39,428 bases of DNA, taken from contig NZ_JACSWC010000401.1 in assembly GCF_016888165.1 (NCBI RefSeq), forward strand, positions 1 to 39,428, read 5' to 3'. Below the pieces are notes generated by a model. The model was not told the origin of the DNA. It did not search any database and saw only the letters and a program-made list of their open reading frames with translations. Of this stretch, positions 13,327-24,066 are shown one piece after another (position 1 is the first letter of the stretch; each line of letters begins with the position of its first letter). The translations under genes and the position numbers were made by a program. Origin of the DNA: Halomicronema sp. CCY15110 (GTDB taxonomy: Bacteria; Cyanobacteriota; Cyanobacteriia; Phormidesmidales; Phormidesmidaceae).

Positions 13327-13749
13327 ATGAATAATCGACTTTTTAGCACCCTGGGGGCGATCGCCCTGCTTAGCACCACGACTGCCTGTATGACACCACC
13401 TGCTCCCGAAGCGCCGACGGAGCAATCGGCCTATGGCGAAATCTCGTTGCCACCGGAAAGCCAGCGGTTTGGGGCCTATCCTGAACAAATCGCCCTCGAT
13501 GCCTTTGGGATGGAGGAGCCGATGGAAGGCAACTTCAGCCAGGAGACTCAACTGGTGGAGCAGACTTCGGAGAGGGCGATCGTCACACTGACGCAGACAG
13601 GATTGCTCGACGACTCGGTGGAGGGCATGCGCTACTGGCTGGAGTTTGACGCCGGGGAGGCGGCTTAGGAAATGGTCTGGGCCGGTCGCCAAGTGCGCGG
13701 CTATCCCGGTCGCGGCTCCCAAGACTGGACCACAGAACTGTGTAATTAA
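13327..13749 (+). pseudogene. Putative lipoprotein gene interrupted by an in-frame TAG
   Basis: The frame begins with a lipoprotein-type signal peptide (MNNRLFSTLGAIALLSTTTA then Cys21) and runs 113 codons to TAG at 13666-13668. The same frame continues without a shift for another 26 codons to TAA at 13747-13749. The extension (EMVWAGRQVRGYPGRGSQDW, then a tail ending in Cys-Asn) looks like real protein and resembles the C-terminal motif of small secreted cyanobacterial proteins, VWAGxQ-x-R-C-x-x-GRG-x-x-DW-x-TE-x-C. The first cysteine of that motif is Gly here. I infer a single nonsense change in a 140-residue gene, recent enough that the frame is kept. A sequencing error or readthrough are alternatives. 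Function unknown. Confidence 0.65.
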
Positions 13750-14402
13750 AGACGCGGTTGCAGCACACATCCCTGTTGGGACGCCCAGCGTGGCTTTCAA
13801 GCGTCCATAAGCTCCGCCGCCGTCACGACTCCTTGGATAACTACCCAGTAGGTACAAGTCGCTCCAAGCTATATCAAACAAGGCTTCCAAGGGATCGGCA
13901 ACTAAATAAAGTACTCGTTCAATTCGGTTTCGACTTCGCTCAACCTACCAGTATCGAGAGTTGAGCGGAGTCGAAACTCAGTCCATGGGGATCTTTTTTG
14001 CGCGCCAGTCCCTAAGCTCTACGTGATGACTAAAACCTGACCACCTGCGGCACCTCTCCTTGGCAAGAAGAGGTTGATTCACGTCGTGATGAGCATTTGC
14101 AGCAAGTCCATCACGACACCCGCAGACCAATGGGTCGGGAGTGAGCCCCATCGTGCCCAAGCCCGTCATGCCGAGGTAAGCGCAGGCGACCCCGGTGACC
14201 TGGAGCTGCTGTTTCATGAGGATTAGCAACAACGACTGGCCCATGTGCCGTGAGCTGAAGACATAGTCAAACTCGCAGGCTTGAAGAGCCGCCTGGAGGT
14301 CGCGATCGGTCTGGCACACAACATCGTTGGGGGCATCGGCTTGCAGGCCACCGCCGCCGTCATAGCGAAAGGACGACTCATATAACTCGCAGGGGGGCAG
14401 TC
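13750..14402. other. Gene-poor stretch with an inverted repeat and a doubtful ORF
   Basis: It contains the 18-bp inverted repeat at 13927-13977, one palindromic repeat copy and most of a 142-codon minus-strand frame described separately. Nothing else is convincingly coding. Confidence 0.35.
13927..13977. repeat. 18-bp inverted repeat (hairpin)
   Basis: GTTTCGACTTCGCTCAAC at 13927-13944 pairs with GTTGAGCGGAGTCGAAAC at 13960-13977, with one G-T position and a 15-base loop. Repeats with the core TTTCGACTxCGCTCAAC are scattered in many cyanobacterial genomes. There is no T-run, so it is more likely a repeat element than a classical terminator. Confidence 0.7.
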
Positions 14403-14692: not shown

Positions 14693-15307
14693 GTGCAAAA
14701 GCTCCTTTTTTCCCTTGCCACCACTGGACTCCTGATCTTCTCTGGCACCGCCTGCACCATGCCAGGGACAGGCACCGAGTCCACGGAAACGGACTCCGAG
14801 TCCACGACCCCGTCGGGACTTCTGACCTACGACGGCCCCGCCGAAAATATTCCCGTCACCGCCCAATACCCCAACACCATGGAGGTCATGGCAACGGGCA
14901 GCAGCGAAGGCGTTGGCGTCTTCTTTACCTTCCAGCCCCAGGGCAACGCTCTTGATGATGCGGAAGTGCATGTGTTTCTCCCCGCCAACTCTTCAGATAC
15001 GGGCGACCTGATAGCGTTTATTACTGGCTCCAACGGCCTGATCGAAAACAATGGCTGGACGCTGGATGGCTCTCGCGCTGACACCGCGCCTGAGTTTCCT
15101 TACCCCTGGTTTGAGATGGTGTTCGACATCAGCACCGATCAGGAACAAGCCGGACATATCTTGATTGGCCAATCTGCAGGGCAACCGATTCAGGTCATCG
15201 TGCTCTACCCCGCCGAGATGGCAGATGAGTTTTGGCCTGCGGCGAATACCGTGCTCGATAGTCTGGCCTTTGATGCCGATCGCTTACCAGTGACGACCTC
15301 TGAGTAA
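14693..15307 (+). CDS. Putative lipoprotein of unknown function
   Basis: A 204-residue product starting at GTG 14693. The signal peptide is MQKLLFSLATTGLLIFSGTA followed by Cys21, which fits lipidation by Lgt/LspA. A Thr/Ser/Glu-rich low-complexity linker follows (25-40), and then a beta-rich domain with no cysteines (45-200), resembling secreted domains of unknown function in cyanobacteria. Only the signal peptide and linker are clear. It probably sits at the outer face of the inner membrane or in the outer membrane. Its N-terminus resembles that of the interrupted lipoprotein upstream (Cys at the same position), but the mature parts do not look alike. A 9-bp hairpin at 15345-15363 follows the gene. 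Confidence 0.68.
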   Translation: MQKLLFSLATTGLLIFSGTACTMPGTGTESTETDSESTTPSGLLTYDGPAENIPVTAQYPNTMEVMATGSSEGVGVFFTFQPQGNALDDAEVHVFLPANSSDTGDLIAFITGSNGLIENNGWTLDGSRADTAPEFPYPWFEMVFDISTDQEQAGHILIGQSAGQPIQVIVLYPAEMADEFWPAANTVLDSLAFDADRLPVTTSE

Positions 15308-15344
15308 GTCGCACGTTAGTTACCAGAGAGTATTTTTATCGGGA

Positions 15345-15363
15345 CTGGCTGGCGGCCAGCCAG
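15345..15363. terminator. GC-rich hairpin downstream of the lipoprotein gene
   Basis: CTGGCTGGC (15345-15353) and GCCAGCCAG (15355-15363) are exact reverse complements around one base, so the practical loop is three bases. There is no T-run after it, so a termination role is only suggested by position, about 40 bases after the stop codon. Confidence 0.4.
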
Positions 15364-15422
15364 CTAATCACTGGGCTCTGATAAAGGTCAGACATGGAAA
15401 TTGCGATCGCTCAGGAGAAGCC

Positions 15423-15794
15423 ATGAACTGGCTCAGGTTATTCTTCGCCCCCCTCCAACCGTTTATTGCTCATCCCGAGCGCATCATTGCTGTGGCCACG
15501 ACCCTACTCGTCCTGTTTGGGGTGCTGGGCAGAACTCGGGGTCGCTGACCTCGCCCCCTGCTGTGGGCCACCGGACTGTGGGCCGCCTTTGCCGCCTGGG
15601 AGTGGCTCATCCTGGTGCAAACCCCCAAAGCTAATATTCGGATCGACCGCTTGGTGATCTATCCGGTTCTGCTGTTCACGCCCCTTTGGGCGGTATGGGC
15701 TGGGGTGCGATCGCTCCGGGGTGCCGTAGGCAGGGCGCTCTCTGTCATCATTAGCCGCTGCATTTTGAGCGGTTTCAGCCATTCTCTAACGTAG
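15423..15794 (+). pseudogene. Small membrane protein gene interrupted by an in-frame TGA
   Basis: From ATG 15423 the frame encodes a hydrophobic N-terminus (MNWLRLFFAPLQPFIAHPER and a helix IIAVATTLLVLFGVLG). It meets TGA at 15546-15548 after 41 codons, then stays open in the same frame for 81 codons to TAG at 15792-15794. The downstream part encodes two more membrane helices (LLWATGLWAAFAAWEWLILV and YPVLLFTPLWAVWAGV) and a conserved-looking polar link (QTPKANIRIDRL). The full 123-residue product would be a three-helix membrane protein. TGA could derive from CGA or TGG by one base change. I infer a recent nonsense mutation; a sequencing error or readthrough are alternatives. The end overlaps the convergent gene by 20 bases. 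Function unknown. Confidence 0.7.
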
Positions 15795-16125
15795 CAGTAT
15801 TGGCCCAAATTTTCTCCACTGCTGTCGCCATGCGGCTCAGGTCTTCGTCTAACAGAGGGGGCCAGTCAACTTGCTGAGCTTTGCCACGCAGGTACAGCAG
15901 CCGACTTTCGTAAGACAGGATAAAGAACGCATGGCCGAGCGATCGCTCAATCATGGGCTCGTTTTTCAGCCCCTGGGACAACGTTTTCAGCGCTAACAGC
16001 AGAGACGTGACCTGACCCGGCAACGGCGCGGTGCCGCGTCGTAAACAGTCAATAAAAGTGCTTTGTCCGGGGACTGGGGACAGCGTCTGAGCCAGCACAA
16101 ACCGACGTGCAGTATCAAAGTCCAT
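15775..16125 (-). CDS. Conserved hypothetical protein
   Basis: About 116 aa from ATG 16125 (MDFDTARRFVLAQ). The frame extends 14 residues upstream, but the MDFDTARRF beginning is the one I associate with this family. It is all-helical and soluble, with the recognisable stretch PPLLDEDLSRMATAVEKIW at the C-terminus and GQVTSLLLALKTL in the middle. Similar short cyanobacterial proteins are annotated as hypothetical, sometimes misleadingly as dethiobiotin synthetase; there is no P-loop here, so that name should not be used. It overlaps the 3' end of the interrupted membrane protein gene on the other strand by 20 bases. Confidence 0.7.
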   Translation of the reverse strand: MDFDTARRFVLAQTLSPVPGQSTFIDCLRRGTAPLPGQVTSLLLALKTLSQGLKNEPMIERSLGHAFFILSYESRLLYLRGKAQQVDWPPLLDEDLSRMATAVEKIWANTATLENG

Positions 16126-16275
16126 GGTGGCAAAATTCTCCGAGAAAACACGCTGAACTTGTTGCAATCAAGACAACTACGGGCACCCTAAACCCAACTT
16201 GCTGATGAGAGATAATCCTCAACATTCATGGAGACTTTATCAAGAAACCGACTGATTCTGTAAGAAAACTGCGAA

Positions 16276-16464
16276 CTACGAGAGCGATCGCCCATAAGCA
16301 CTGATCGCGATGACTAACATCAAAAACACAGCTAATGAGTGACCGAGCAGCAACAGCATTGCCAAAACGCCGTATTCACTCCCTGAGCCATGAGACTGCG
16401 AGTGCTTCGCGTCGCCTGTGAGTTGATCGCACAGCGCAGTCTGAGAATGATCCGCTGCCACCAT
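16276..16464 (-). CDS. Possible small single-helix membrane protein
   Basis: A 62-codon frame. The N-terminal half is polar (His, Ser, Gln), and the C-terminal half has one long hydrophobic helix (YGVLAMLLLLGHSLAVFLML and on into VIAISAYG) ending with Arg-Ser-Leu-Ser. That topology suits a small inner-membrane or thylakoid peptide. No family is recognised and no clear ribosome binding site is visible. It diverges from the aminotransferase gene with 62 bases between the start codons. Confidence 0.38.
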   Translation of the reverse strand: MVAADHSQTALCDQLTGDAKHSQSHGSGSEYGVLAMLLLLGHSLAVFLMLVIAISAYGRSLS

Positions 16465-16526
16465 GCTATCCCTGCCGATTTTAAGTCAGACCGTCGATTG
16501 CCAGCCCTTGAACCCTAACTATTGTT

Positions 16527-17714
16527 ATGACTAACCCTCAAGAACTCATTCCGTTTGTTGATCTGTCCTGGCAGCATAACCAGATTCAAGAGGAGATGCA
16601 GGCAGCCCTGACCGCCGTTTTGAGTCGCGGTGACTTTGTCTTAGGGCAAGCGGTCAAAGACTTAGAAACCGCCTTTGCTGACGCCTCAGGCGCACAGCAT
16701 GGCGTGGGCGTTGGCTGCGGCACGGATGCGATCGCTTTGGGGCTCGCAGCCTGCGGCATTGGCGAAGGGGATGAGGTCTTACTACCCGCCAACACCTTTG
16801 TGGCAACGCTCATTGGCATTTTGCGCAGTGGGGCCACCCCTGTCTTTGTGGACTGCGATCGCGAGACCGCTTTAATCGATTTAGCCGCTGCTGAGGCTGC
16901 CATCACGTCCAAAACGCGGGCCATTGTCCCCGTCCACTTGTATGGACAGATGGTTTCCCCCAGCGGGCTTCAGGCCCTCGCCGAACGCCATAACCTCCTG
17001 ATTTTTGAAGATGCAGCGCAAGCGCATTTAGCCCAGCGCGAGGGCGTGACCGCGGGCAGCATCGGCATGGCAGCAGCCTTTAGCTTTTATCCCAGCAAGA
17101 ATTTGGGGGCCATTGGCGATGGTGGCATGTTGCTTACCCAAGAAGCCTTAGTCGCCCAAACCACGCGATCGCTGCGCAACTACGGTGCCGCTCGCAAATA
17201 TTTCCACACCGAGCCCCACGGCACCAACAGTCGCTTAGACACCCTCCAAGCCGCCATCTTGGGATTAAAGCTGCCCTATCTGCACAATTGGAACCAAGCG
17301 CGCAATCGAATTGCCCAACACTACGACGAGTGCTTAGCCAATCTGCGAGAGTTCGGCATTATTCCCATGCGCAACGATAGCGGCACCGGTCACGTGTACC
17401 ACTTGTATGTAGTGCGGGTCACCATCGACTGTCCCCTCGACCGCACTGCCCTACAACTGGCACTCGAAGCCCAGCAGATTCAAAGCGGCATTCACTACCC
17501 GGTGCCTTGCCATTTACAACCCGCCTTTCAGTCTCTGGGATATCACGCCAGCGATTTCCCGATGTCAGAAGCGTTATCGCAAGAAATCCTCTCGCTCCCC
17601 ATGTTTCCCGGCATGACGTTGGCGCAAGCTGACCGGGTGATTGACGCGATCGCCCAAGCTGTGAATCAAGGTGCCAGTATCACTGAATCGCCCACTGTGT
17701 TATCCGCCAAATAA
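16527..17714 (+). CDS. DegT/DnrJ/EryC1/StrS family sugar aminotransferase
   Basis: A PLP-dependent enzyme (395 aa) that transfers an amino group to a keto-sugar nucleotide, making amino sugars for surface polysaccharides. The family fold is complete: substrate and PLP phosphate-binding GCGTDAIALGL, LPANTFVAT, VDCD, PVHLYGQ, and FEDAAQAHLA with the ring-stacking Asp. The Schiff-base Lys191 lies in FSFYPSKNLGAIGDGGM, and the C-terminal domain has the usual GIHYPVPCHLQPAF. It resembles the 3-oxo-glucose/4-keto-sugar aminotransferases (QdtB/WecE-like); the exact substrate cannot be told. It opens a + strand set with cyanoexosortase B nine bases downstream and polysaccharide export genes after that, which supports a role in exopolysaccharide or glycan synthesis. 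Confidence 0.94.
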   Translation: MTNPQELIPFVDLSWQHNQIQEEMQAALTAVLSRGDFVLGQAVKDLETAFADASGAQHGVGVGCGTDAIALGLAACGIGEGDEVLLPANTFVATLIGILRSGATPVFVDCDRETALIDLAAAEAAITSKTRAIVPVHLYGQMVSPSGLQALAERHNLLIFEDAAQAHLAQREGVTAGSIGMAAAFSFYPSKNLGAIGDGGMLLTQEALVAQTTRSLRNYGAARKYFHTEPHGTNSRLDTLQAAILGLKLPYLHNWNQARNRIAQHYDECLANLREFGIIPMRNDSGTGHVYHLYVVRVTIDCPLDRTALQLALEAQQIQSGIHYPVPCHLQPAFQSLGYHASDFPMSEALSQEILSLPMFPGMTLAQADRVIDAIAQAVNQGASITESPTVLSAK

Positions 17715-17723
17715 ATCAACCCC

Positions 17724-18626
17724 ATGACTTCGAAGACTTCTATCCTCAAGCCTCGTTGGTCACTAGCACCCTTATCGATCGCGCTCCTAGCGCTACTGAC
17801 CGTGATGTATGGCCCCCTGCTCTGGCATTGGGTCGATGGGTGGCTGAATAAATCCATCAGCATCCAGCACGAATACTTTAGCCATGGGCTGATTGGCTTA
17901 CCGTTTGCGGCTTACCTGGCGTGGAGCCTGCGCCCTCAGTGGCGCGAACTGCCCGACCGTTTGCATCCCGCAGGCATTGGCTTATTGGCCATGGCCAGTG
18001 CCCTCTACCTCAGCCAACTGCCTGACTGGATGAACATTTCGTTCCCACTCATGCTCGCCGGTCTTTGCATCACCCTCAAAGGGTTGCCGGGCCTCAAATT
18101 GATGGGTTTTCCCCTCGCTTTAGTGGCCTTAGCGACGCCGAGCCAACTGCCATACTTGATTGAGCCCTATATTTTGCCCTTGCAGAGCTTTATTGCCAGC
18201 GTGGCGGGCTTTTTGCTGATGCAAGCCGGGATCGATGTCACCGTGGATCAGATTTATTTACGGGTCAATGACCAAATGGTCGAAGTGGCCCCCCACTGCG
18301 CGGGGCTCAAAATGCTCTTTACCAGCCTATATGTGGCGTTGATGCTGATTTACTGGAATGACGTTTGGCGATCGCGCTTGCGCACTGGCCTGTTCTTAAT
18401 CGCTACCGTTGGCGTCAGTGTCTTCGGCAACATCATTCGCAATACCTTGTTGAGCTACTTTCATGGAGTGGGCAATAAAGCCGCGTTTGCCTGGCTACAC
18501 GACAGTTGGGGAGGAGACCTTTACTCTGCCCTGCTGCTGCTGTCATTAATCTTCATTCTGCGACTCATCCAGACCCATGTGCCGTCGCAATTATCGCTAG
18601 AAGTCAACTCGGAAACAGCGGTCTAG
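17724..18626 (+). CDS. Cyanoexosortase B
   Basis: A polytopic membrane cysteine transpeptidase of the exosortase family (300 aa, about eight helices). Exosortases process proteins with a C-terminal PEP-CTERM-like signal (membrane helix plus basic tail) during export. The catalytic residues are present: Cys192 in APHCAGLKM, Arg239 in GNIIRNTLL and His259 in WLHDSWGGD. The N-terminal helices and the HEYFSHGL motif on the first loop fit the cyanobacterial B type. It starts nine bases after the aminotransferase stop and is followed 33 bases later by its partner gene. The neighbouring polysaccharide export genes match the usual association of exosortases with exopolysaccharide loci. No obvious PEP-CTERM substrate is encoded in this window, so the substrate should be elsewhere in the genome. 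Confidence 0.9.
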   Translation: MTSKTSILKPRWSLAPLSIALLALLTVMYGPLLWHWVDGWLNKSISIQHEYFSHGLIGLPFAAYLAWSLRPQWRELPDRLHPAGIGLLAMASALYLSQLPDWMNISFPLMLAGLCITLKGLPGLKLMGFPLALVALATPSQLPYLIEPYILPLQSFIASVAGFLLMQAGIDVTVDQIYLRVNDQMVEVAPHCAGLKMLFTSLYVALMLIYWNDVWRSRLRTGLFLIATVGVSVFGNIIRNTLLSYFHGVGNKAAFAWLHDSWGGDLYSALLLLSLIFILRLIQTHVPSQLSLEVNSETAV

Positions 18627-18659
18627 TCCGCATCTTTAGCCGATAGGAGGCCCTCATTT

Positions 18660-19388
18660 ATGGCTGACGCTGCCCAAACCAGACCCAAACCGCGCTCCCT
18701 AGTTCAGTGGGGCCTCATTGCGGTGCTCGCTGCCCTCGTGGCGATCGCCGCCTTGCCCAGTTATTTCAGCGGTCAGTGGCCGTGGAGTAATGAACTCCCC
18801 GTCCCCCATATTGAAGAACTCAGGACGCTCCTTGAGGAGCCTCTCGCGGTTCCCGGTTGGGAAAGCACGTTTCATGATGAGGTGTCGATTGGGCGCGAAC
18901 GCTGGACGCTGGCCGAGTATCGCCGGGTGGGGGGCACCGACGAACTCGGCGATACCTTTGGGCTTTTGCTCCGGCCCCAGCGATCGGCTGACCAGCAGCC
19001 CGAAGTCGAATGGGTCGATTTACAGGGGGCACAAAGTTGGCAAGTGGATCATCGCCACAAGGTTCGCTGGCAGGTAGAGCCAGCCGCTGGAGCTGATGCC
19101 CGGTCAGTCACCACCCAATATTTACGGGGGATCGATGCCCGGAATACCTTTGCCGTGATGCAGTGGTATGCCTGGCCCAGCGGCGGCCACTTTGCTCCTG
19201 GTAAGTGGTTTTGGGCCGATCAAGCCCAGCAGTGGCAACAGCGGCAGCGGCTACCCTGGGTCGCCGTCAGCATTTTGCTCCCCATCGAACCGGTGGGCGA
19301 CATCCGCACCCATACAGCAGCGGTCACCGAGATTGCCCAGGCGGTGCAACAAGGGCTATTAACCACTACCTTTTCCAGCAACGGCTAA
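18660..19388 (+). CDS. Cyanoexosortase B system-associated protein (EpsI-like)
   Basis: A 242-residue protein with one N-terminal membrane anchor (GLIAVLAALVAIAALPSYF) and a beta-rich extracytoplasmic domain. Motifs such as PGWES, LAEYRR, AVMQWYAWPSGGHFAPGKWFWADQ and ILLPIE fit the EpsI-like partner found next to cyanoexosortase B. In exosortase systems the EpsI-like domain often sits fused to or beside the exosortase and is thought to assist it or the linked glycan export. A strong AGGAGG at 18645-18650 precedes the ATG by nine bases. It is very likely co-transcribed with the exosortase gene. Confidence 0.85.
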   Translation: MADAAQTRPKPRSLVQWGLIAVLAALVAIAALPSYFSGQWPWSNELPVPHIEELRTLLEEPLAVPGWESTFHDEVSIGRERWTLAEYRRVGGTDELGDTFGLLLRPQRSADQQPEVEWVDLQGAQSWQVDHRHKVRWQVEPAAGADARSVTTQYLRGIDARNTFAVMQWYAWPSGGHFAPGKWFWADQAQQWQQRQRLPWVAVSILLPIEPVGDIRTHTAAVTEIAQAVQQGLLTTTFSSNG

Positions 19389-19597
19389 GACCGCAGTCGG
19401 CTTGCGACGATCGCCCCTTAGCTGGGCGACGATGTGCCAGAATCAGCCTACCCGGTGCAAGCACCATGCCACGGGCTCACCGATAACTGCGGCAGAACTT
19501 TCCCGAATCCTAGCCCCAGTGCCGAAAAATACATAAAGACAATGTCCTGAAACGCGCAAAAACGTCTAGCATTTTTAGAACTGATTGGAAGAAATTA

Positions 19598-20977
19598 TTG
19601 AGCAGGTCGAATGTCATGGGTATGGCTGTCAACCATTGTCACCAACAGCAACCAAGGCAGCGGGTCTGCCGTTGGCTAACTGCTAGCACCCTATCGACAG
19701 TGCTCCTCTTGGGTGGAAGCATCGAGGCGATCGCGGCTAATGGTCGTGACCCCGTGCCCCCTCGGGCAACACCGGCGGGCTGGCACATTGCCAATACCGA
19801 CTATGGGCAAGAGCATCACGGCACCACCGGGCGATCGCTAACTCATCCGACCGACGACGAGGCGATCCCCACCACCAGCCAGGTACCAGCAGACCCCTCA
19901 GACGACACCACACCAACCTTTGACATCATCCCCGACCCCAGCGTCACAGCACCACTCCCCCCCCAGCAGCCCCTGCCCAGGCCGGGCGTCGATCCGGTAG
20001 TCGATAGCCTGCTCGGCCGCCCCCAAGAACCTGACTTCGATACATATCGTCTAGGGCCAGGTGATGCCTTCTTTGTGAATGTGCGTCAGTTTCCCGAATT
20101 GAGCTTTCAGGCTACCCTCGACATTCAAGGCAACGTCGTCGTTCCCCTCCAGGGAGTGGTCTCATTTAACGGCCTCACCTTAAACCAATCAGAGGCGTTA
20201 ATTACTGAGATCCTTAATCGCTACGTCATTGACCCCGATGTCAGTCTGACCTTGGTCGCTCAACGCGGGGTTGAAGTCACTATCTTGGGAGAAGTCGTGC
20301 GTCCCGGCTACTATCCCCTAGGCGCACCCCAAATTGCCTCCGCACTCCTGACCGCCGGGGGGACAACCAACAAGGCTGATTTACGTTCTGTCATCGTTCA
20401 ACGACGGCTACCCGATGGTCAATTGCTAGAACGCAATATTGATCTCTTTACACCGCTTAAAGATGGCGACGCCTTACCGGATATTGCTTTGCAAGATGGT
20501 GATGTCATCTTCGTCGAACGCCTTGATCCCGCCGCTTTAGATGAATACGACCAAGCCTTAGTGTCGCGCTCAACACTGGCCACCCCAACCATCACCGTTC
20601 GTCTCTTAAACTATGGGCCAACCGGCGGCATCCTCTCTGCTGTTGATCTGCCCAATGGCAGCCGTTTTGCAGATGCACTGGTGCGCACTGGGGTGAACGC
20701 CGATTCGTCTAACCTGGGTGAAATCGCGCTAGTCCGGTTTGACGAAACTGCGGGCCAAGCAATGACGACGCTGATTGATGGCCATGATGCGTTCCGAGGC
20801 ATCCCAGCCGAAAATCCACCGTTACAACAAAATGACGTTATTATCGTCAACCGCTCATTACTCGCGAGGGTAACGTATGCTCTAAATACCTTTACGCAAC
20901 CCTTTCGAGACGTCCTTGGGTTTTTACTCTTCTTTGATTCCTTATCAGAGTCAGCCACTAATCTCTTCGAGCCTTAG
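19598..20977 (+). CDS. Polysaccharide export outer-membrane protein (Wza/SLBB type)
   Basis: A secreted protein (459 aa from TTG 19598; in-frame ATGs at 19616 and 19622 give 453 and 451 aa). A signal peptide ends near IAA-NG, followed by a disordered Pro/Thr/Asp-rich linker (about 40-145). A polysaccharide-export domain begins at YRLGPGDAFFVNV, followed by SLBB-type beta-grasp repeats: EVTILGEVVRPGYYPL, a second with RSVIVQRRLPDG, and a third near TITVRLLNYGPTGG. A C-terminal amphipathic stretch (LNTFTQPFRDVLGFLLFF) could be the outer-membrane helix. It is the channel through which exopolysaccharide leaves the cell. The TTG has GGAAG seven bases upstream, so I keep it as the frame start, but ATG 19616 is also plausible. 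It precedes the Wzc-type gene, its usual partner. Confidence 0.92.
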   Translation: MSRSNVMGMAVNHCHQQQPRQRVCRWLTASTLSTVLLLGGSIEAIAANGRDPVPPRATPAGWHIANTDYGQEHHGTTGRSLTHPTDDEAIPTTSQVPADPSDDTTPTFDIIPDPSVTAPLPPQQPLPRPGVDPVVDSLLGRPQEPDFDTYRLGPGDAFFVNVRQFPELSFQATLDIQGNVVVPLQGVVSFNGLTLNQSEALITEILNRYVIDPDVSLTLVAQRGVEVTILGEVVRPGYYPLGAPQIASALLTAGGTTNKADLRSVIVQRRLPDGQLLERNIDLFTPLKDGDALPDIALQDGDVIFVERLDPAALDEYDQALVSRSTLATPTITVRLLNYGPTGGILSAVDLPNGSRFADALVRTGVNADSSNLGEIALVRFDETAGQAMTTLIDGHDAFRGIPAENPPLQQNDVIIVNRSLLARVTYALNTFTQPFRDVLGFLLFFDSLSESATNLFEP

Positions 20978-21069
20978 GTTTTTATCCAAAAACCAACACC
21001 CTTTAGCCACTGAATTGCCGACGAATAACGACTCTCTGAACTGTTTATTGATTGCCTGCTGCCATGGTC

Positions 21070-23304
21070 ATGCCCCTGCTCAAAAAATATGGCTTAGCCC
21101 TCAAGCGCTATAAATGGGTACCGATCGCCACATTTCTCGGCGGCTTGGGCTTATCCACAATTTTGGCCATGCAGCCTCCCCCAGAAGAGGAATACCAGAC
21201 AACCGGCGTACTTGTACAAAATTCTCCCGTCGTTTCGTTTACCGCCACTGGGGTGGAACTCCAGCAACAAGGCCAGGGCATTATTACGGAAGACTTTTTG
21301 CTGGCAGATATCTTACTAGCTCGGGTCGCCGAACAGCTCAACAATGGCGGCTTAGAGATTACGCCTCGACAAATTCGCAATCGTACGAATATAAAAATCA
21401 ATACTGGCGGTGGCGATGAAGGCGGCGGCAACATTTTACAAAGCGTGAATGTTACCTACCAGTCAACCAATCCCGAAGAAGCAGAAGCGGTTTTATCCGT
21501 GCTTTTTCAAGGCATGGTGGAACTCAGCCGCGTCACCAACCGCGCCCGGTTGGGAACGATTGTTTCTGCATTGGATGAACGCCTACCGGCCATTGAGGCA
21601 GAACTGCGCGAAGCCGAGCAAACCTTGGAAGCGTACGATCGCATAGAGGGGCCAGCCATTCAAGCCTCGTTAGACGGTAGTTTGCTGTCCGAAATTTCCC
21701 GCAGCCAACAACAGCGGCGACAAAACCTGATTACGATTGCGGGGCTAGAGGCTCAGATGCAGAGCTTGCAGGCGCAACTAGGGCTGTCGCCCGAAGCCGC
21801 TTATGCGTCATCAGCGCTGAGTGCCGACCCTATTTTGCAAAACCTACGGGCCCAGATTTATCAAACTGAGTCACAGATCAGAACCTTGTCGCGCGAGTTG
21901 CGCGAGGCCCATCCCACGATGATGGAGCTGCGCAACGACCTCAACGGCTATAACCAACTTTTGCAAGAACGGGCCGCTGAGGTCATTGGCGGCGGTGGTG
22001 GGCTGGCAGCCCTTCCCAGCGCTGACGTGGTGCGACAAAATAGCAATCTTGACCCCGCCAGAGCCGCCCTCGCCAATCAACTGGTTAGCCTCAAGACCCA
22101 ACGCGACTCCTTAATTACCCAGCAGCAGGTACTGGCCCAGTCGGAGCAACAACTGCGAGAAGCCTACACCCGCTTACCCAACAAGCAGCTAGAACGCGAT
22201 CGCCTCGCTCAGCAAGTCGCCCTCAAAAAGGCCCTGTATGACCAAGTGCAGGCCAAACGCATTGATGCCCAAGCGGCCGAGGCGGAAACGGTCAGCAGCC
22301 TGTCAGTGGCGAGCCCACCCTCAACAGAAGCGATTCCCATAGAAACGATGTCACCGATTTTGGTGCTGATCTTGGGTGGCGCTGTGGGGCTCGGGCTCGG
22401 CGGTGGTTTAGTCTTTTTACTGGATATGCTCGATCCCAAAATCCGCATTTTCGAAGACCTCGACAAACTCTTCAAAGATCAAGAGATCCCGTTGCTGGGG
22501 GTGGTGCCCGAGTTAAAGCCTGAGCTCGGTGAGTCGCTCCTCATCATCGACATAAACCATCCCTGCTCTGAAATTTACGAACGAATGCGCAGCAACCTGC
22601 AACTTTCGGGCGCTGAGATCAATGACGGTCGCGTCCCCAAAACCGTGTTGGTCACCAGTCCTGTTTTCCATGAAGGTAAGACTACAACCGCTTACAACTT
22701 GGGGATTGCCGCCGCTCGCACGGGTCGTCGTACCTTAATTATTGAAATGGATTTTAGAAATCCGTCGCAGTCCATGCGATTTGGCATCCAGCCCGACGAC
22801 CAGGCCTTGACCGAACCGTTGCAGTATTACAGTGGTCGCTTTTCTGATCCGATCAGGATGGTGCCCCAAGTAGCAAACCTCTCCATTGCTCCGGGGGTTG
22901 GCCCACAGCGTAGCCCAGCCACGATTTTGGACTCCGGCGAAATGCGACGGTTCTTGCAGGATGCCCAAGCTCGTTTTGATTTTGTCATTTTAGATGCTCC
23001 TCACTTTACTAGCAGCAATGATGTGGTCATCCTGGAGCCCAAAACCGACGGTCTGATTTTAGTGACCCGTCCAGGGGTGACGAAGAAGCCCATCATCAAA
23101 GAGCTATTGGAGCAGCTGGAAGAGAAAGAAGATATTCGTGTCCTGGGTGGCGTAATTAATGCAGCTGACATTCCGATGAAAGCGGCACAAATGCGCGACG
23201 ATACCCTCGTCACTGAGAATGAAGACGATATCGATATGAACGGTGTCGCCCCGCCACCAGCGGAGAAATCTCCTCCACGCCGTCGTACTCCCATCGAGTT
23301 TTAA
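21070..23304 (+). CDS. Wzc/GumC-type polysaccharide co-polymerase with BY-kinase ATPase domain
   Basis: A 744-residue inner-membrane protein controlling exopolysaccharide chain length. It has an N-terminal helix (WVPIATFLGGLGLSTILAM), a long periplasmic coiled-coil region (about 60-430, with Gln/Glu/Arg-rich heptads and an LREAHPTMMEL motif), a second membrane helix (PILVLILGGAVGLGLGGGLV) and a cytosolic ATPase domain. Walker A is FHEGKTTT (Lys537), Walker A' is IIEMDFRNPS and Walker B is FVILDAPH, as in bacterial tyrosine kinases. The C-terminal tail (after MRDDTLV) is acidic then proline- and arginine-rich and has no tyrosine, whereas active autokinases end in a tyrosine cluster. It may bind ATP without self-phosphorylation on the tail. 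ATGs at 21064 and 21070 and a TTG at 21052 are in frame; I use 21070. It lies about 90 bases after the export-channel gene. Confidence 0.92.
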   Translation: MPLLKKYGLALKRYKWVPIATFLGGLGLSTILAMQPPPEEEYQTTGVLVQNSPVVSFTATGVELQQQGQGIITEDFLLADILLARVAEQLNNGGLEITPRQIRNRTNIKINTGGGDEGGGNILQSVNVTYQSTNPEEAEAVLSVLFQGMVELSRVTNRARLGTIVSALDERLPAIEAELREAEQTLEAYDRIEGPAIQASLDGSLLSEISRSQQQRRQNLITIAGLEAQMQSLQAQLGLSPEAAYASSALSADPILQNLRAQIYQTESQIRTLSRELREAHPTMMELRNDLNGYNQLLQERAAEVIGGGGGLAALPSADVVRQNSNLDPARAALANQLVSLKTQRDSLITQQQVLAQSEQQLREAYTRLPNKQLERDRLAQQVALKKALYDQVQAKRIDAQAAEAETVSSLSVASPPSTEAIPIETMSPILVLILGGAVGLGLGGGLVFLLDMLDPKIRIFEDLDKLFKDQEIPLLGVVPELKPELGESLLIIDINHPCSEIYERMRSNLQLSGAEINDGRVPKTVLVTSPVFHEGKTTTAYNLGIAAARTGRRTLIIEMDFRNPSQSMRFGIQPDDQALTEPLQYYSGRFSDPIRMVPQVANLSIAPGVGPQRSPATILDSGEMRRFLQDAQARFDFVILDAPHFTSSNDVVILEPKTDGLILVTRPGVTKKPIIKELLEQLEEKEDIRVLGGVINAADIPMKAAQMRDDTLVTENEDDIDMNGVAPPPAEKSPPRRRTPIEF

Positions 23305-23313
23305 CCATGGCTA

Positions 23314-23374
23314 GGGGACGGTTCCCTGTCGAGTTGCCCGATACAGTCAGACAAAGGTTGAGGGAACCGTCTCC
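23314..23374. terminator. Imperfect 14-bp inverted repeat after the export operon
   Basis: GGGGACGGTTCCCT (23314-23327) pairs with AGGGAACCGTCTCC (23361-23374) with one mismatch and a 33-base loop. It lies just downstream of the Wzc-type gene and may protect the 3' end of the mRNA or be a repeat element. Confidence 0.45.
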
Positions 23375-23402
23375 GTTGTAGTGTGCTGAAATTTTAAACG
23401 AC

Positions 23403-23433
23403 AAAAACCGGAAACTTGAAGCTTCCGGTTTTT
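23403..23433. terminator. Bidirectional rho-independent terminator
   Basis: AAAAACCGGAA (23403-23413) and TTCCGGTTTTT (23423-23433) form an 11-bp stem with a nine-base loop. The A-run and T-run make it work on both strands. It separates the + strand export genes from the - strand cytochrome oxidase operon. Confidence 0.8.
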
Positions 23434-23454
23434 GCTACTTAGCGACAATGGACG

Positions 23455-24066
23455 CTAAATGAGCGTCAGTAGGTAAATTAGGGAAAACAGGATGATCCAC
23501 ACGACGTCAACGAAGTGCCAGTAAATTTCGGCCATTTCGACGCCAGTGTGATGCTCGGTACCATAGTGGCCTTCGCGCCGCGATCGCCACAGCACCCCCA
23601 GCATGAGCAACAAGCCAATGAACACATGCAACCCGTGAAAGCCAGTCAGCAGATAAAAGCAGTTGCTAAACAGGTTCGTCGTGAGGCCATAGCCCAGCGT
23701 TAAGTACTCATAGACTTGGCCCACGAGAAAAGTCGCGCCCATGGCGACGGTCAAGATGTACCACTTGCGTAGCCCTTTAACATCGCCTTGCTTAACCGCT
23801 GTATCGCCAAGGTGGATGACAAAGCTGCTAGCAACCAGAATGACGGTGTTGATAGCAGGAAGCAGTAGCTCAACTTCGGTTTCTTCGGGGGGCCAAGCAG
23901 CAGCCTCGGCGCGAAACACAAGGAACAGGACAAAAAAGCCCGCGAACATTAGAAATTCGGAACAGAGGAAGGTAATCAGCCCCAATACCCGAAAATCGTG
24001 ATGTTCGGAAGGCTGAAATTCCTCAACAGCGATGGTATCTGGAGTGGAGTCAATTGCGCCTTGCAT
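23455..24066 (-). CDS. ctaE: Cytochrome c oxidase subunit III
   Basis: The third core subunit (203 aa, five membrane helices) of the aa3-type terminal oxidase. It stabilises subunit I and the proton-uptake side rather than carrying metals. Family segments include FRVLGLITFLCSEFLMFAGFF, WPPEETEVELLLPAINTVIL, FYLLTGFHGLHVFIG and EIYWHFVDVVWIILFSLIY, and the length is normal for the five-helix bacterial form. It is the last gene of a ctaC-ctaD-ctaE operon, 112 bases after ctaD, and is followed by the bidirectional terminator. In cyanobacteria this oxidase reduces oxygen with electrons from cytochrome c6 or plastocyanin, mainly in the dark. Confidence 0.96.
   Translation of the reverse strand: MQGAIDSTPDTIAVEEFQPSEHHDFRVLGLITFLCSEFLMFAGFFVLFLVFRAEAAAWPPEETEVELLLPAINTVILVASSFVIHLGDTAVKQGDVKGLRKWYILTVAMGATFLVGQVYEYLTLGYGLTTNLFSNCFYLLTGFHGLHVFIGLLLMLGVLWRSRREGHYGTEHHTGVEMAEIYWHFVDVVWIILFSLIYLLTLI

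Follow-up and report, generated by a model that had tools for sequence, protein, structure and literature searches.

In the 39,428-nucleotide stretch of Halomicronema sp. CCY15110 that was analysed (hereafter, the window), a gene of ~100 codons for a predicted three-helix membrane protein is interrupted by an in-frame TGA, and is most likely a recently inactivated gene, a nonsense pseudogene undergoing ordinary decay. The gene lies between a lipoprotein-like gene and a convergent gene, and is whole in the congener (genome G001). The host assembly is a 6.15 Mb draft in 443 contigs.

The interrupted frame and its intact orthologue

The frame (15423–15794, + strand) translates as 41 residues, a TGA at codon 42 (15546–15548), 81 more residues, and a closing TAG. 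A Shine-Dalgarno-like AGGAG stands shortly 5′ of the ATG, and also in the G001 relative. The frame can be divided as follows.

15423..15545, + strand: 5′ part of the interrupted gene (41 codons), with the start, a short N-terminal helix, and the first long helix, as drawn from the translation, the G001 alignment, and a structure model
15546..15548, + strand: in-frame TGA (codon 42), located in the linker that joins the first two long helices; G001 has TGG (Trp) here
15549..15719, + strand: 3′ part homologous to the family, with helix 2, the conserved loop, and helix 3, as drawn from the alignment and the structure model
15720..15794, + strand: non-homologous read-out beyond the stop position of the G001 gene, up to the TAG

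The structure model, of modest confidence (mean pLDDT 71.6, pTM 0.37, single-sequence input), has long helices at residues 18–38, 44–66, and 74–98 and a short helix at residues 3–16, with the TGA codon between the first and second long helices. The translation and the model thus agree with a first-pass annotation of the window, which had described a frame open over 124 codons save for a TGA at codon 42, lying between the first and second predicted helices. That annotation had also taken the entire 124-codon frame as the gene, and on this point it is corrected here, as only about the first 99 codons belong. By alignment, the family ends near residue 99–102, so the last ~24 codons of the frame lie outside of it and the native stop has been lost; the end of the read-out overlaps the end of the convergent gene. 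Following the TGA, no ATG, GTG, or TTG occurs in frame before codon 65, where a GTG (GGGAG 12 bases upstream) falls as predicted helix 2 ends; translation restarting from this GTG would leave out almost the entire helix. Judged from the sequence itself, the TGA would therefore cut off the conserved part, and though the codon-65 GTG exists, no restart would recover the whole of it.

The G001 orthologue (C8:75874–76179, minus strand) is uninterrupted, encodes 102 aa, and is syntenic, with the same neighbours in the same order. Window and G001 copies share 72% identity (71.7%) over residues 1–99, with TGG (Trp) in G001 at codon 42; a partial copy at a contig edge in a further genome, G081, also has Trp at this codon. 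Differences between the window and G001 are distributed 24/9/40 over codon positions 1/2/3 (100 codons), and this excess at the third position, together with the uninterrupted G001 copy, indicates that the frame is more than a chance ORF. The dN/dS ratio between the two copies was 0.198 overall, 0.269 before the stop, and 0.157 after the stop, the last value giving no plain sign of lost constraint in the 3′ part. As the genomes are far apart (dS about 0.8), most of the low-dN/dS signal would predate a recent stop.

Compared to the other genes of the block (eight genes in total), the TGA gene had the lowest identity (71.7% versus 80.9–93.3%) and the highest dN/dS, though the bootstrap interval of its ratio (0.114–0.328) overlaps the intervals of both intact neighbours that were examined (0.085–0.217 and 0.047–0.175). 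When codon changes were polarised by the G081 copy (60 codons), the window branch held 7.5 synonymous and 6.5 non-synonymous changes versus 8.0 and 2.0 on the G001 branch. For amino-acid changes, 10 were assigned to the window branch versus 4 to the G001 branch, with 6 unresolved. Neither contrast was significant (codon changes, Fisher p = 0.39 on rounded counts; amino-acid changes, binomial p = 0.18). The constraint and decay data are all compatible with a stop that arose recently in an old gene.

A thinly spread family of small membrane proteins

Using the intact G001 sequence to search genome contigs, 38 further loci encoding relatives were identified; the window protein as query had found no relative in the first search of these contigs. 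At 31 of the 38 loci a single ORF spans both sides of the stop position, 30 of these ORFs being 90–123 aa in length (start chosen by rule) and that of L070 longer. The remaining seven are at contig edges or fragmentary (L041, L056, L063, and L064) or are short Flavobacterial forms (L073, L076, and L078). The first-pass view, that a nonsense codon interrupts a gene for a membrane protein, is upheld by the G001 gene and these 31 spanning ORFs, which also answer the possibility, raised at the same time, that no homologue of both parts would be found. A second possibility raised there, that homologues would correspond to the 3′ part only, with a start of its own, holds for the three short loci; in the window there is no start before codon 65. 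These three loci (Flavobacteriia/Flavobacteriaceae; 55–59 aa) match the 3′ part only and are without the first long helix, and the loop with helices 2–3 may be the minimal unit of the family.

Family loci include members from cyanobacteria, proteobacteria, Desulfobacterales, Acidobacteria, Flavobacteria, and one Chloroflexi bin. Besides the window, the gene occurs in two of 62 genomes of the same taxonomic family, and across the class in six of 388 genomes (own included), amongst which only the window copy has a stop inside the match (the G081 copy being partial). The family gene is an accessory gene. A search of 398 genomes of the phylum of G412 recovered the family in G412 alone, and the family is therefore sparse in that phylum. 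One match, in G023 (E = 0.004), contained four stops and was discarded as a chance match; it was absent from the search of same-family genomes. Stops in the family profile matches seem, judging from ORF lengths, to be native ends that were overrun or, in the short relatives, upstream sequence.

The window matches positions 8–94 of the 97 positions of the family profile (E = 8.3e-25). Alignment counts exclude five of the 39 extracted sequences: L007 (taken, from its identical sequence, to be the same genome as L041), L042 (identical to L043), and the fragments L056, L063, and L064. In the resulting 34 relatives, the codon-42 column holds Ser (n = 11), Arg (n = 6), His (n = 6), Gly (n = 3), Lys (n = 2), one each of Trp, Asn, Thr, and Leu, and two gaps, as for a variable linker position at which no special residue is to be expected. 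The first-pass expectation of CGA or TGG at this codon in relatives is borne out for TGG in G001, while the column is otherwise variable.

The loop between helices 2 and 3 reads TPEANIRVDLL in most relatives and TPKANIRIDRL in the window; over the segment used to test for the conserved loop (PEANIRVDL), the window has PKANIRIDR, with Lys for Glu, Ile for Val, and Arg for Leu. As EANIRVDL was itself used as a search pattern, the conservation of this motif is partly circular (ascertainment). The loop Glu and Val vary in a few other members, and with Glu-69 replaced by Gly in L077, L155, L156, and L157, the Lys-69 of the window counts for little. At codon 76, the window has Arg, compared to Leu in all 34 aligned relatives and in all five further stretches that were read, one of these being the source record of the excluded fragment L064. 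By descent and synteny, the window copy is filed as a putatively decayed copy of the family and not as a working member.

This family of small three-helix membrane proteins is uncatalogued, without a match above cut-off in Pfam, NCBIfam, PHROGs, or the PDB sequences searched. The window protein had no match in Pfam or NCBIfam; Pfam searches with the G001 copy and five relatives gave sub-threshold noise only, and NCBIfam searches with four relatives gave nothing above the cut-off (two sub-threshold matches, both for one relative). No match was found in PHROGs (two proteins), in PDB sequences (12-row profile), or in a plasmid search with one relative. A fold search with the low-confidence model returned 75 matches, none with E of 0.001 or better, and no fold is claimed.

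Proteins encoded beside the family gene were compared around 37 of the 38 loci (duplicate L042 left out). One single-linkage cluster has up to 20 members, an upper figure, since membership is loose and at least one member (L061) is probably an antisense ORF. Based on a mechanical call, a cluster member is encoded on the same strand immediately 5′ of the family ORF, at a distance of 8–30 bases, at L043, L048, L052, L058, L068, and L069. Eight neighbours, six from this cluster and two from other clusters, were tested against Pfam. A META domain was present in three (L043, L058, and L075), an SH3_3 domain in one (L043), and a PLD-like domain in the L048 neighbour, one of the two from other clusters; the other four had nothing above the Pfam cut-off. 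A literature search on small membrane proteins and META domains found nothing pertinent. The likeliest guess is that the family has a role in the cell envelope with a secreted partner.

A second broken gene and a remnant nearby

Four further features surround the interrupted frame.

13327..13749, + strand: second interrupted gene, lipoprotein-like, with a TAG at 13666–13668
14116..14376, − strand: remnant matching residues 3–89 of a 1312-aa AAA_35/PAS/WD40 protein of G001
14693..15307, + strand: intact lipoprotein-like gene immediately upstream of the interrupted gene, in the same order in G001 (81% identical)
15775..16167, − strand: intact convergent gene, adjacent in G001 (83% identical over 112 residues)

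The convergent gene was matched in 23 of the 29 genomes searched, own included. A distant copy of it (G040:C1:2758625–2758960) was reported with one TGA inside the match.

The TAG gene, noted in the first pass as a second nonsense-interrupted gene 1.9 kb away, is confirmed as a Trp-to-stop change relative to both G001 and a paralogue in the same genome. Its identity is 80% to an intact gene situated 75 kb away on the G001 contig and 59% to the intact paralogue (C364:25724–26077), each with TGG at the TAG codon. The overall dN/dS of the TAG gene was 0.138, with 0.014 for the 26 codons that follow the stop. Such a low ratio, here as in the TGA gene, is evidence of past constraint and not of current function. 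Between the TAG and TGA genes lies the AAA/WD40 remnant; no match to the rest of the 1312-aa protein was found in the window. AAA_35/PAS/WD40 proteins are multi-copy in cyanobacteria, and the G001 protein may thus be a paralogue of the remnant. Both interrupted genes and the remnant occur within one 2.5 kb patch. At the DNA level, synteny with G001 covers 14697–23609, save for a single short gap, and breaks off immediately upstream of this range.

For a count of broken genes, 34 ORF matches between the window and the G001 contig carrying the orthologue were considered, of which 22 at ≥75% identity were counted, giving 23 pairs with the addition of the TGA gene (71.7%); 12 weaker, paralogous, or wrong-frame rows, including one with a stop against a gap, were not counted. 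Only the TGA and TAG genes are nonsense-broken among these 23 pairs, which cover one G001 contig and leave outside the count those window genes without a counterpart there (e.g., most of 5.2–13.3 kb). The other stops listed in the 22 pairs lie upstream of the window ORF starts. Elsewhere in the window, a cyanoexosortase B (TIGR04156) occurs at 17724–18626, with a DegT/DnrJ aminotransferase gene just upstream.

Alternative explanations

The stop could be real but leaky, with the near-cognate tRNA-Trp(CCA) reading UGA at a low rate and inserting Trp, leaving a gene that is down-regulated and not dead. Trp inserted in this manner would be the residue of G001 at codon 42 (ancestral), the dN/dS after the stop is low, and the tRNA-Trp of the host has A at position 24 (our numbering) where E. 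coli has G. The available part of PMC13092985 lists G24A as a change that facilitates UGA readthrough, and in the available part of Belinky et al. 2021 (PMC7918605) readthrough is argued for bacterial genes with in-frame stops, which often keep dN/dS below 1. However, A24 was present in every one of the 19 genomes examined, the host's own among them, and is not special to this host, and the anticodon stem of the tRNA-Trp has the normal five pairs and not the 4-bp stem of the readthrough type described in that part of PMC13092985. Further, RF2 is present and uninterrupted, and Leu-76-Arg together with the lost native stop suggest decay. The neighbouring broken gene has a TAG, which a UGA-reading tRNA-Trp route is not expected to read. 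Some UGA leakiness may be possible in principle, but as an account of this gene leaky readthrough is unlikely. A broader version, in which the UGA is tolerated via Trp-inserting readthrough by an A24 tRNA-Trp that is normal-looking in cyanobacteria, with a little full-length protein made and with cyanobacteria bearing many ‘soft’ Trp-to-UGA alleles that are regulatory or nearly neutral and not null, is more doubtful still. Nonetheless, with an A24 tRNA-Trp(CCA) throughout the 19 genomes, basal cyanobacterial readthrough of UGA may merit measuring.

An assembly or sequencing error at 15546–15548, with the gene intact in the organism, also carries little weight. The genome is a draft in 443 contigs and the only one of the species examined, both of which leave room for an error, but the lesion is a plain substitution as opposed to an indel in a homopolymer, another nonsense lesion, independent of this one, is found 1.9 kb away, and the 3′ end of the gene has diverged as well.

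It is very improbable that the 3′ part constitutes a short gene in its own right, beginning at a start codon of its own. The short 3′-only relatives (L073, L076, and L078) and the GGGAG ahead of the codon-65 GTG would be in keeping with such a gene, but the stretch from the TGA to codon 65 lacks any in-frame start, and the restart would drop nearly all of helix 2.

Least credible, to the point of near exclusion, is that this host reads UGA as sense (Trp or selenocysteine), as the Trp of G001 at codon 42 might suggest: RF2 was matched above cut-off and SelB was not (best 181 versus 242 bits); the 42 of 43 tRNA matches called by ARAGORN, a list that is incomplete in that tRNA-Leu(UAA) is missing, include one tRNA-Trp(CCA) and none with UCA; anticodon loops other than UCA or CUA are seen in the 43rd match (contig C196) and in the two weaker tRNA-like stretches next to it; and at 36 Trp positions of G001 in seven intact neighbouring genes, the window has TGG at 34, TTG at two, and TGA at none. 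Reassignment is thus unsupported, with neither a tRNA-Trp(UCA), nor loss of RF2, nor TGA at conserved Trp codons observed. Three antisense TGA counts proved to be shadow frames of opposite-strand genes, and the per-gene count was used instead. A suppressor tRNA was sought beside the C196 match (12 kb), which yielded three tRNA-like stretches, none with UCA or CUA by their aligned loops. These stretches are adjacent (C196 3495–3845, − strand; Rfam 41, 28, and 25 bits), were not called by ARAGORN, and resemble a short array of tRNA genes that are degenerate or unusual.

Discussion

The preferred reading remains recent inactivation of the gene by a nonsense change. Under this reading, a TGG-to-TGA change at codon 42 would have occurred on the window lineage, and translation would end after the first long helix, leaving a peptide of 41 residues that lacks the conserved loop along with helices 2–3. 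Function would presumably be lost or nearly so, and further erosion may have followed, with the native stop gone and Leu-76-Arg in the loop. With a second Trp-to-stop gene and the AAA/WD40 remnant nearby, the patch reads as a set of decaying accessory genes beside intact syntenic genes.

Nonsense-broken accessory genes are common in bacteria and the locus matters little in itself. For annotation, the appropriate entry is a pseudogene, in place of a 41-aa protein followed by a second short protein. The family is of wider relevance: thinly spread, with a strongly conserved loop, and found in several loci directly next to proteins with a META domain or other secreted proteins, it merits naming and testing.

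Three comparisons place the window copy. Residues 1–99 of the frame belong to the TPEANIRVDLL family, and the window copy differs in being interrupted and in its diverged loop (TPKANIRIDRL). Compared to the G001 orthologue, it shares synteny with the same neighbours and 72% identity across 99 residues, while the G001 gene is without the stop, ends at residue 102, and keeps TPEANIRVDLL. According to the available part of Belinky et al. 2021 (PMC7918605), in-frame stop codons are widespread in bacterial genes, many are argued not to mark pseudogenes, and such stops tend to last for a short evolutionary time. The study, in that part, centred on stops common to orthologues of at least two species, whereas here one genome is known with the stop; the likeness to the nonsense pseudogenes and in-frame stops treated there lies in the single in-frame stop, the intact orthologue in a close relative, and a dN/dS below 1.
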